Made by a program: the position numbers and the translations under genes. From Arenicellales bacterium (GTDB lineage Bacteria > Pseudomonadota > Gammaproteobacteria > Arenicellales > JAJDZL01), in contig OX638343.1 of assembly GCA_951813075.1 (NCBI GenBank), positions 124,001 to 188,000 on the forward strand: 64,000 bases of DNA, given 5' to 3'. Below are positions 59,330-64,000 of this stretch, one piece after another (position 1 is the stretch's first letter; each line of letters opens with the position of its first letter). A model generated the notes under the pieces. It had not been told where the DNA came from. It searched no databases and saw nothing but the letters and a program-made list of their open reading frames with translations.

Positions 59330-60478
59330 ATGAAAAACGCTGTCGAGCCAATCCCGTTTCCGGGCAATGACATTTCTGGAATCAGTTCGATCGAATCAAT
59401 TCTGCAGGACTTTCGTGCAGGTAATATGGTCATATTGGTCGATGACGAATCGCGTGAGAATGAAGGTGATCTTTTAATCTCGGCAGAACATGTAACTGCG
59501 GATCACATCAATTTCATGGCCACTCATGGTCGGGGTTTGATTTGCCTCTCGCTGTCGGAACAACGATGTCGGCAACTTGACCTGTCTCCAATGGTAAGGG
59601 AAAACACATCGCCATATTCCACCGCGTTTACAGTGTCTATTGAAGCCGCAAGAAATGTTTCAACTGGAATATCCGCCGCCGATCGCGCAACAACAATTCA
59701 GGCAGCGGTGCATCCGGATGCCTCACCTTCGGATATCGTCACACCCGGACACATTTTCCCGATCATTGCAGAGCCAGGAGGCGTTCTCACGCGTGCCGGC
59801 CATACAGAAGCTGGAAGTGATCTCGCAAAATTGAGCGGTTTGGAACCGGCGAGTGTTCTGTGTGAGATTCTAAGTCCCGATGGCACCATGGCGCGGTTGA
59901 ATCAACTCATAGAGTTTTCCAAACACCATGGTATCCGGATTGGAACAATTGCCGACCTGATTCGGTATCGGCTCGAGACAGAGTCCACGATCAGTCGAGA
60001 CTATGAATCCACGATGATGACTGAGTTCGGTGAGGTGAAGGCAATTTCTTATAACGACGAGGTGCGCGGGAACACCCATCTGGCACTTGTCTACGGAGAC
60101 ATCAATTCAGACATACCCACGATGCTGCGTGTCCACGTATTTACCGGCATGATCGAGGTGCTGGATGCGATAACGTTCGGCGGTCATTCGTGGTCAGTGC
60201 GTAAAGCGCTTCAGAGTATCGTTGAAGCTGGCTCAGGCGCAATCGTGATCTTGAACTATCAGCACGAGTTCGGTGAAATTACCGACAACATACAGGAACG
60301 ACGGCAAGAGTCGGAAGATGCCAGTGGTAATAACGACATCAGAATTATCGGAGTTGGAAGTCAGATTGCAGCCGATCTCGGCTTCGGGAAGCTCCGGGTA
60401 TTGGGTCATCCAATGAAACTGCACGGACTTTCTGGATTTGGTTTGCACATCGTTGAATATCTTCCACCGACAGGTTGA
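59330..60478 (+). CDS. ribB: 3,4-dihydroxy-2-butanone-4-phosphate synthase with a RibA-like C-terminal domain lacking catalytic residues (RibBX type)
   Basis: Makes the four-carbon precursor of riboflavin. Residues 20-220 are a full RibB domain: ILVDDESRENEGDLLISAEH (acidic loop), FMATHGRGLICLSL, and TRAGHTEAGSDLAKLSGLEP with the active-site segment. Residues 225-382 have the outline of GTP cyclohydrolase II but lack its three zinc cysteines and the GQEGRG motif, so this half should not have cyclohydrolase activity. Such RibBX proteins are known in proteobacteria. A true RibA must be encoded elsewhere. It leads ribH-nusB/thiL-pgpA. Confidence 0.88.
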   Translation: MKNAVEPIPFPGNDISGISSIESILQDFRAGNMVILVDDESRENEGDLLISAEHVTADHINFMATHGRGLICLSLSEQRCRQLDLSPMVRENTSPYSTAFTVSIEAARNVSTGISAADRATTIQAAVHPDASPSDIVTPGHIFPIIAEPGGVLTRAGHTEAGSDLAKLSGLEPASVLCEILSPDGTMARLNQLIEFSKHHGIRIGTIADLIRYRLETESTISRDYESTMMTEFGEVKAISYNDEVRGNTHLALVYGDINSDIPTMLRVHVFTGMIEVLDAITFGGHSWSVRKALQSIVEAGSGAIVILNYQHEFGEITDNIQERRQESEDASGNNDIRIIGVGSQIAADLGFGKLRVLGHPMKLHGLSGFGLHIVEYLPPTG

Positions 60479-60490
60479 AGGTTTGCTGCG

Positions 60491-60967
60491 ATGGAGTACG
60501 ATAAGAAGAAGAACAAAAACACTTCTGGAATATCATTCGGTATAGTTGTCAGCGAGTACTACCCTGAAATTTCAGACAGGCTTCTATCGGGTGCGGTCGA
60601 AGTATTGCGATTGCATTCGATCAAGTCTGAAGTCTATCGGGTAAGCGGTGCATGGGAAGTGCCTTTTGTCACACGCGTGATGGTGAAATCAGGCAAATAT
60701 CGGGGCATTATTGCTCTAGGCTGCGTCATCCGCGGAGAGACATCCCATTTCGATTATCTGTGCGACCATAGTGCCCGGGCGCTTATGGATATCAGCATGG
60801 AATTTACATTACCGATTGGATTTGGAATATTAACCGTCGAGAATGAAGGTCAGGCTATTGCGCGATCACAGCTGGGTCCGAATGCACGTAATAAAGGTGC
60901 AGAAGCGGCAGAGGCGGTGATCTCAGCCATAGACGCGGTATCCTACAGTGTGATCTCGAATCCCTGA
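60491..60967 (+). CDS. ribH: 6,7-dimethyl-8-ribityllumazine synthase
   Basis: Penultimate step of riboflavin synthesis, forming cage-like oligomers. The 158 residues show FGIVVSEYYPEISDRLLSGA, the VSGAWEVPF substrate loop, ALGCVIRGETSHFDYL with the catalytic histidine region, and PIGFGILTVENEGQA. It begins 12 bases after ribBX and ends 12 bases before the next gene, so the block is one operon. Confidence 0.95.
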   Translation: MEYDKKKNKNTSGISFGIVVSEYYPEISDRLLSGAVEVLRLHSIKSEVYRVSGAWEVPFVTRVMVKSGKYRGIIALGCVIRGETSHFDYLCDHSARALMDISMEFTLPIGFGILTVENEGQAIARSQLGPNARNKGAEAAEAVISAIDAVSYSVISNP

Positions 60968-60979
60968 AGGATTCCCACT

Positions 60980-62386
60980 ATGACAGTATCAGCCCGACAC
61001 TATGCACGACTGGGTGCTGTACAGTTCCTATATGCCTGGAATTTTCAGAAGCAATCTCTGAGCGGTACTGAAGATCAGGTTCTCATCGATTCGGATGTGC
61101 TTTTGCACGGAGACATGAGGTATCTGCAGAAACTCCTGAAATCGATTCCGCCAAGAATTCCGGAGATCGATGCAATCGTGTCCGAAGTCATCCATCGAAA
61201 GATAGAGACAATCGACCCGGTCGAATTGTCGATTCTTCGACTCGGTGTCTACGAACTTCTCGCGGAATCTGATATCCCCAGAAAAGTGACTGCCAATGAG
61301 TGCATTGAACTTTCGAAAGAATTTGGTAATCCCGGCAGCTACAAGTTTATCAATGGAACACTGGATAAACTTGCTTTCGGAAATTTCTCACTTCATAAAT
61401 CGAATCAAAAAATCGACAAGCAATCGGATCGTCGGGAATTTGAGTTGATTGAAAAATATTTCTCAAGATCCAACGCCAAGTTTGAAAGTGTCATACAGGG
61501 AGTTGGCGATGATAGTGCGATCGTCGAAATCCCCGCTGGCAAACAGCTGGTCATTTCGACAGACACTTTGTTGGAGAGTGTTCACTTTTCGAGCGAAACC
61601 GCGCCGCGAGACATTGGTTACAAGTCATTGGCAGTTTCTTTCAGTGATCTTGCCGCAATGGGGGCACAGCCCGAATTTGCCACATTGAATCTTTCAATTC
61701 CAAAGGCCGATGACCGCTGGCTGAAGCGGTTCAGTAGCGGATTTTTCGAAATTGCTGATCAATACAATGTAGCGCTGATTGGTGGCGATACCGTAAACGG
61801 TCCTTTAGGAATTACGGTAACAGTATTAGGCAGTGTCGATGAAGGAGGGTGTTTGTTGCGTTCCGGAGCAAGACCAGGAGATGGCATATTTGTGACCGGA
61901 ACACTCGGAGATGCAGCGCTGGGATTGCTGCTTGCGAACGATAACCTGGGTGTGTCAGACGAAGTTTCCCGATATCTCTTGCACAGACTCAACCGTCCAT
62001 CTCCCAGAGTCGATGTAGCGTTGGGTTTGCGCAGGCATGCGACATCAGCGATAGACATTTCAGACGGTTTGATTGCTGATTTGACGCATATCCTTGAACA
62101 AAGTGGCGTCGGCGCGGAAATCGAGCTTGAGCGCGTACCGCTTTCCGACGCCTATAGACAGTTATTGACGGACGTGGGTTGGGATCATGCGCTCGCGCGC
62201 GGTGACGACTACGAGCTATGCGTTACGTTGCCGGAAAATTCCGAATTCGCAATGGTAAATGAAATAGTGATTGAGGGTGTCAAGCTCACCCGAGTTGGAA
62301 TAATCACGGAGCAACCCGGTCTGGTCATCAAGAACTTGCTGCAAGAACCTTACCACCCGGAACACTCTGGATACTCACACTTTTGA
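60980..62386 (+). CDS. NusB-ThiL fusion: transcription antitermination factor NusB joined to thiamine-monophosphate kinase
   Basis: One uninterrupted 468-residue frame holds two proteins that are normally separate neighbours. Residues 1-140 are NusB (RLGAVQFLYAWNFQKQ, SILRLGVYELLAESDIP, CIELSKEFGNPGSYKFINGTLDKLA). A linker of about 20 residues follows, then ThiL from about 156 (REFELIEKYF, GVGDDSAIV, AVSFSDLAAMGAQPEF, GGDTVNGPLG, AIDISDGLIADLTH, GDDYELCVTLP). No Met, GTG or ribosome site marks a separate thiL start at the junction. The place in the operon, between ribH and pgpA, is exactly where nusB and thiL usually stand. ThiL makes thiamine diphosphate; NusB acts in rRNA antitermination. 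Confidence 0.9.
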   Translation: MTVSARHYARLGAVQFLYAWNFQKQSLSGTEDQVLIDSDVLLHGDMRYLQKLLKSIPPRIPEIDAIVSEVIHRKIETIDPVELSILRLGVYELLAESDIPRKVTANECIELSKEFGNPGSYKFINGTLDKLAFGNFSLHKSNQKIDKQSDRREFELIEKYFSRSNAKFESVIQGVGDDSAIVEIPAGKQLVISTDTLLESVHFSSETAPRDIGYKSLAVSFSDLAAMGAQPEFATLNLSIPKADDRWLKRFSSGFFEIADQYNVALIGGDTVNGPLGITVTVLGSVDEGGCLLRSGARPGDGIFVTGTLGDAALGLLLANDNLGVSDEVSRYLLHRLNRPSPRVDVALGLRRHATSAIDISDGLIADLTHILEQSGVGAEIELERVPLSDAYRQLLTDVGWDHALARGDDYELCVTLPENSEFAMVNEIVIEGVKLTRVGIITEQPGLVIKNLLQEPYHPEHSGYSHF

Positions 62387-62401: not shown

Positions 62402-62884
62402 GTGAAGCGAGCTCTGGTAAATGAAGTCTTTACGAATCCGGTTTATCTGACCGCTTGCGGATTTGGTGCAGGTCTGGTACCAAAAGCACCGGGCACAGTT
62501 GGAACGCTGGTTGCGATACCCATCGTAGTCGCCATCTCGTGGCTGGCTACATCGGTTCAGTGGGTCGTGCTTGCGGCAATGTTTGTTTTGGGTTGTTGGG
62601 TCTGTCAGGTGGTTGCTGATTCACTCGGGGACAACGACCCCGGTGTCATCGTTTGGGATGAGATATTCGGATTCTGTATTGCCATGATATTGATTCCGCT
62701 GAGTCTTGCGACGATTGTGCTTGGATTTGTTATTTTTCGAACATTGGATATTCTCAAACCATGGCCGATTTCGTGGGTCGAAAGGAAGTTTTCTGGTGGA
62801 TTTGGAATCATGATCGACGATGTTATCGCCGGTTTGGTGTGCAATGTATGTCTGCAGGTATTTATCCGCATCAACTATCTTTGA
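62402..62884 (+). CDS. pgpA: Phosphatidylglycerophosphatase A
   Basis: Removes phosphate from phosphatidylglycerophosphate in the inner membrane. The 160 residues have FGAGLVPKAPGTVGTLVAI, DNDPGVIVWDEIFGF (metal residues), FRTLDILKPWPI and GGFGIMIDDVIAG, plus three or four hydrophobic helices. The start is GTG, 15 bases after the fusion gene's stop. It ends the rib-nusB/thiL-pgpA operon, a conserved gammaproteobacterial order. Confidence 0.94.
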   Translation: MKRALVNEVFTNPVYLTACGFGAGLVPKAPGTVGTLVAIPIVVAISWLATSVQWVVLAAMFVLGCWVCQVVADSLGDNDPGVIVWDEIFGFCIAMILIPLSLATIVLGFVIFRTLDILKPWPISWVERKFSGGFGIMIDDVIAGLVCNVCLQVFIRINYL

Positions 62885-63054: not shown

Positions 63055-63444
63055 ATGAAAATTGGTTACAAGCAGCTCCTTGACGAAGCGATGTCCGAAG
63101 TCGAGACATTGTCCGTGGAAGATGCGATCGCTTTGCACGAAAAAGGCGAAGCACAATTCGTGGACTTAAGAGATATTCGAGAACTCAGGCACGAAGGGAA
63201 AATTTCGGGTACTTACCATATGCCGAGAGGCATGCTTGAGTTCTGGATCGATCCTGACAGTCCCTACTTCAAGAAGATATTCTCGCAGAATACCAGATTT
63301 GTCTTCTACTGCAAGTCGGGATGGAGATCGGCACTTGCAACACAGACCGCACAGAGGATGGGGCTTGACGGTGTCTGCCATATTGACGGTGGATTTGATG
63401 CCTGGAAAGAATCCGGAGCTCAGATCGAGATGCTTGATGATTGA
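63055..63444 (+). CDS. Single-domain rhodanese-like protein
   Basis: Sulfurtransferase-like domain of 129 residues. EAQFVDLRDIRELRHEGKI, GTYHMPRGMLEFW and the active loop FYCKSGWRSALA with the catalytic cysteine near residue 89 are seen; HIDGGFDAWKESG closes the fold. No signal peptide. It lies 170 bases after pgpA in an AT-rich upstream region and 72 bases before dsbC; a functional link to either is not evident. Confidence 0.9.
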   Translation: MKIGYKQLLDEAMSEVETLSVEDAIALHEKGEAQFVDLRDIRELRHEGKISGTYHMPRGMLEFWIDPDSPYFKKIFSQNTRFVFYCKSGWRSALATQTAQRMGLDGVCHIDGGFDAWKESGAQIEMLDD

Positions 63445-63516: not shown

Positions 63517-64000
63517 ATGAAAATTGGTCCAATCACAGCTGGGGTGGTGTTTGCCGCATTGTTTTCACTAAACACCTTTGCGGATGAACAACTGGAACAC
63601 GTACGTGATGCACTTCTCGGTTTTCTCGAAGGGCAAACCGAACTCCAGGAACTTACAGCATCTCCAATACAGGGAGTTTATGAAGCAGTAATCGCAAATA
63701 GAATTTACCATGTTTTTGTAAAAGACAACCACTTGATCGTAGGAGAAGCCTTCAACCTTGCTACTGGTGAGAGCTTGAGTGATCGAAAACAGAATATGGC
63801 TATCGCTAGTCTTGTAGAGAGGACATCAACTGAAGATATGGTCGTCTTTGCAGCTCAGGGTGAGACCAAGCGATATCTCACCGTTTTCACCGACATTGAT
63901 TGTGGCTATTGTCGTCGCCTTCATCGGGAAGTTCCGGCATTGAATGCGGCTGGTCTGGAAGTCAGATACATGGCATACCCCAGAGCCGGAATTGCCTCTT
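63517..64000 (+). CDS. dsbC: Thiol:disulfide interchange protein DsbC, 3' end cut off by the window
   Basis: Periplasmic disulfide isomerase. About 161 residues are present of roughly 240. A signal peptide spans about 1-22 (TAGVVFAALFSLNTFA). The N-terminal dimerisation domain follows (SPIQGVYEAVIANRIYHVFV, LIVGEAFNLATGESLS), then a linker helix region (LVERTSTEDMVVFAAQG) and the start of the thioredoxin domain with FTDIDCGYCRRLHREV, whose CGYC is the DsbC active site. The frame is open to the window edge. Confidence 0.93.
   Translation, partial: MKIGPITAGVVFAALFSLNTFADEQLEHVRDALLGFLEGQTELQELTASPIQGVYEAVIANRIYHVFVKDNHLIVGEAFNLATGESLSDRKQNMAIASLVERTSTEDMVVFAAQGETKRYLTVFTDIDCGYCRRLHREVPALNAAGLEVRYMAYPRAGIAS

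Follow-up and report, generated by a model that had tools for sequence, protein, structure and literature searches.

Gammaproteobacterial nusB-thiL pairs such as E. coli b0416-b0417 lie in the order ribH-nusB-thiL-pgpA, which the locus described here shares, but they are two genes with a stop and a start between them, whereas here and throughout the genus there is one gene. NusB works on boxA as a heterodimer with S10/NusE (PMC6614801; PMC4642336). ThiL of A. baumannii is a dimer; the N-terminal helix of ThiL sits at the dimer interface, close to the ATP pocket to which helix alpha-1 contributes, and the enzyme has an (I/V)GDD nucleotide-phosphate loop (PMC6416309).

The locus lies near the right end of the window, the whole stretch of 64,000 nucleotides analysed from an Arenicellales bacterium, and has the following features.

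59330..60478, + strand: upstream neighbour ribB, of the RibBX type (C-terminal GTP cyclohydrolase II-like domain degenerate)
60491..60967, + strand: ribH (lumazine synthase), conserved upstream neighbour
60980..61378, + strand: NusB domain, residues 1-133 of the fused frame (TIGR01951, PF01029, PDB matches, dN/dS)
61379..61432, + strand: linker, residues 134-151, basic and sequence-variable, with a length of 18-19 codons in every one of the six genomes of the genus
61433..62383, + strand: ThiL (thiamine-monophosphate kinase), residues 152-468 (TIGR01379, PDB matches, VGDD/IGDD loop)
61445..61447, + strand: TTG codon (Leu156), the only in-frame ATG, GTG or TTG near the junction
62402..62884, + strand: pgpA, conserved downstream neighbour
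63055-63444: rhodanese-like gene, downstream in the cluster

Positions 60980..62386 (+ strand) form a single uninterrupted ATG-initiated frame of 468 codons with no stop between NusB and ThiL. The curated NusB model TIGR01951 scores 103.7 bits (cut-off 88.35) over residues 6-132, covering model positions 2-128 of 131, and the ThiL model TIGR01379 scores 334 bits (cut-off 184.15) over residues 153-468, covering positions 2-320 of 320. Pfam agrees with the curated models on both halves (PF01029 at residues 9-132), and in a PDB comparison E. coli NusB chains match residues 3-132 and ThiL structures match residues 152-468. The (I/V)GDD loop corresponds to residues 175-178, and all six members of the genus retain it. 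The hydrophilic linker is 18 residues long (GNFSLHKSNQKIDKQSDR) with a pI of 9.7, and the calculated masses are 51.4 kDa for the whole chain, 15.1 kDa for the NusB part and 34.3 kDa for the ThiL part. The usual, although not strictly required, form of NusB is a stand-alone protein of ~140 aa; here the chain has 468 aa, and the full-length congeners are likewise fused. A sequence-only reading had placed both full domains in one 468-residue frame, which the end-to-end coverage of both models above their cut-offs bears out, and its estimate of a linker of about 20 residues is close to the 18 measured. Its further claim of no internal start at the junction holds for ATG and GTG but not for TTG, which occurs in frame at 61445 (residue 156) and is not conserved.

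The genome, a single contig of 3.14 Mb, has no nusB or thiL other than those of the fused frame. Its other NusB-domain protein and its other AIRS-type match were considered as second copies of NusB and ThiL and rejected, these being RsmB and PurM, respectively. The genome has a thiE over its cut-off, so that TMP, the substrate of ThiL, is made. A 16S rRNA search of the genome gave no match, and the same search also missed 5 of 14 controls.

The cluster order is ribBX-ribH-[nusB-thiL]-pgpA-rhodanese, with the neighbours in the same places across the genus (in G002 the contig stops short of the upstream ones). The GTP cyclohydrolase II-like domain of RibBX (59330-60478) scores 26 bits against a cut-off of 206 and the usual zinc cysteines are absent; no RibA over cut-off was found in the whole genome. 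The sole other cyclohydrolase II match in the genome is a 411-aa cyclohydrolase II-like protein (C1:1355036-1355461; locus L074), followed by a frame of ~415 aa that we take to be a DUF1688-like (URC pathway) protein. An open frame with a CGYC motif (63517-63999) directly follows the rhodanese-like gene, runs off the window end and, judged by eye, resembles a thiol-disulfide (DsbC-type) protein.

An 18-codon stretch has about a 38% chance of staying open at the window's base composition, so that an open linker in one genome proves little and the comparative evidence carries the case. The NusB-ThiL fusion is present in all six genomes examined from the genus, which is the only one sampled of its family. 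Five have it full length; in the sixth, G002, it is cut short by a contig that starts partway through NusB, but it likewise reads through the junction without a stop. The four full-length congeners share 73, 57, 58 and 57% identity with the window protein, and G002 shares about 51%. The linkers diverge in sequence among the six genomes while their length stays at 18 or 19 codons, such that all six show the conservation with a diverged junction that is looked for in a gene fusion. An assembly or sequencing artefact, with a stop lost or an indel introduced, has next to no chance of being the explanation: nothing was found in its favour, and the same open junction with diverged linkers in six genomes, the independent congeners included, excludes such a slip. 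The sequence-only reading was thus right to treat the fusion as real. It had also called for a search for other genomes with the same architecture, which turned up the fusion in 6/6 of the genus. Close relatives in which nusB and thiL stand apart between unchanged flanks would have counted against it; the congeners are all fused, and separate genes occur only in the order's other families.

The two domains and the linker differ in their constraint. Among pairs with estimable dS, NusB has a dN/dS of about 0.02-0.13 and ThiL one of 0.07-0.17, and for the linker it is about 0.6-1.1 in diverged pairs and 0.08 in one close pair with very few changes; these figures are rough, many pairs being saturated at synonymous sites. 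Both domains are under purifying selection and the linker is relaxed. Conserved domains joined by a linker that varies in sequence and is constant in length is the pattern expected of a flexible tether between two working domains.

The start of thiL has been lost. In each unfused thiL inspected, an ATG, GTG or TTG stands 3-18 nt (1-6 codons) ahead of the conserved EF motif (E153), some of the loci in this survey being one genome taken twice. At this canonical position the six fused genomes have CGT, GGT, AAT, AGT, AGT and GGC, none of them a start codon, and in the four full-length congeners measured the nearest upstream in-frame ATG, GTG or TTG is about 147-150 nt away. Loss of the downstream gene's own start, a further mark of gene fusion, is thus seen in all of the fused genomes. 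In another family of the order (f2; e.g. L008, L016, L018 and L019) thiL seems to use a TTG start codon at this position.

Ribosomes could also initiate internally, at TTG-156 (61445) or at some other non-AUG codon, and so make a separate ThiL; a GGGA about 7 nt before TTG-156 in the window and the TTG that L007 has at the same codon are compatible with this. However, codon 156 lies inside the conserved EFELI motif and reads CTG in three of the six genomes and CTA in a fourth, and the canonical position is without a start codon in 6/6. A product begun at TTG-156 would also lose residues 152-155, with which helix alpha-1 begins, and this helix forms part of the ATP pocket (PMC6416309). We therefore regard internal initiation as very unlikely.

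Outside the genus the fusion was not found. A search of 109 genomes of the order gave none in the 103 lying outside the genus; in a class sample of 369 genomes the window's own was the only uninterrupted NusB-to-ThiL frame among the matches listed, with no further fusion among those listed at a looser cut-off; and a phylum sample of 398 genomes gave no other at a strict cut-off. These samples overlap and all lie within Pseudomonadota. Fifteen genomes with suspiciously long ThiL frames were examined as candidate fusions and all rejected, 14 because NusB was in another frame or stopped before ThiL and the remaining one because no NusB was found nearby. A scan of genome contigs gave a sole ThiL match, from Diaphorobacter; none of the viral contigs searched matched; and in plasmid and chromid records nusB and thiL are adjacent, and separate genes wherever annotated. 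In family f9 of the order several genomes at least 92% complete (e.g. G013, G022, G027 and G036) have NusB and no ThiL match, which suggests that this family may have lost the ThiL thiamine step. None of the open-access literature searched describes a NusB-ThiL fusion, an absence that is weak evidence. Operon neighbours are known to fuse, and it is the pairing of a general antitermination factor with a vitamin kinase that appears to be new.

The class sample indicates how such a fusion may arise, in that 53 of the 110 genomes listed at E<=1e-98 have nusB and thiL in the same frame, separated by one or more stops, a common arrangement that supplies raw material for fusion. The ancestor of the genus would have had the usual nusB-thiL order with both genes in the same frame, and these would have been joined when the nusB stop was lost, with the former intergenic stretch becoming a tether of 18-19 residues and the unused thiL start codon then decaying. 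One 51-kDa chain would be made today from the nusB start, and its C-terminal ThiL part would dimerise and phosphorylate TMP to TPP. As A. baumannii ThiL is a dimer (PMC6416309), a fused dimer would display two NusB domains, each flexibly tethered and still binding S10/NusE and boxA RNA. On the sequence evidence, stop-loss giving an uncut two-domain chain with a flexible tether, a ThiL dimer and both domains in their usual jobs is the probable explanation, and we infer that both activities would be retained in a single chain dimerising through ThiL. The position of the N-terminal helix of ThiL, at the dimer interface and close to the ATP pocket (PMC6416309), means that an N-terminal fusion could disturb the enzyme. 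An AlphaFold prediction of the fused chain, with only the window protein and one ThiL as alignment rows, had a mean pLDDT of 31 and was set aside.

The same linker bears on two other readings. The whole chain could be made and then cut by a protease at an exposed linker to give free NusB and free ThiL, and an unconserved, hydrophilic and basic segment is of the kind that general proteases cut. However, the six linkers have no shared cleavage motif, and retention of an 18-19 codon length with no stop regained over deep divergence gives no sign that separation has been selected; we consider cleavage unlikely, although less so than internal initiation. Alternatively, TMP/ATP occupancy or dimerisation of ThiL could alter binding of NusB to S10 and boxA and tie rRNA antitermination to thiamine status, and retention of an obligate 1:1 coupling across the genus is in keeping with this. 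A long and unconserved linker speaks against a transmitted conformational change, however, and unfused relatives already have nusB and thiL adjacent, apparently in one operon. This is highly improbable, and only marginally less so is the version in which the tether makes rRNA antitermination answer to thiamine/ATP, the ThiL dimer pairing NusB and ligand-bound ThiL altering boxA recruitment. Regulatory coupling of NusB and ThiL is thus possible but unsupported, and the tethered two-domain protein remains the preferred reading: a real and mildly surprising fusion, probably with an ordinary mechanism.

The lineage has kept a 34-kDa, probably dimeric enzyme on the C-terminus of NusB through deep divergence. 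Since NusB is a general transcription factor that works inside a crowded RNA polymerase complex, this is a natural test of how much C-terminal bulk the antitermination complex tolerates, and it raises the question of whether paired NusB can work. The six genomes also record, in the decay of the start codon and the drift of the linker, how an operon of two genes became a single gene.

Compared with stand-alone E. coli NusB (PDB 1EY1, 3D3B, 5MS0), the fusion covers the whole fold at about 40% identity, and the last ~8 residues of the E. coli protein are replaced by the linker to ThiL; from its family, the fused NusB is expected to have the same S10/boxA partner. The ThiL half is likewise full length relative to stand-alone ThiL (E. 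coli; A. baumannii 5CC8/5DD7; A. aeolicus 3C9U) and keeps the nucleotide loop, with about 45% identity to the E. coli enzyme, but unlike these it lacks its own start codon and has its N-terminus tethered to NusB. RsmB similarly has a NusB-fold RNA-binding domain N-terminal to an enzyme, in that case a methyltransferase; however, the RsmB enzyme acts on 16S rRNA, whereas ThiL has no RNA substrate.
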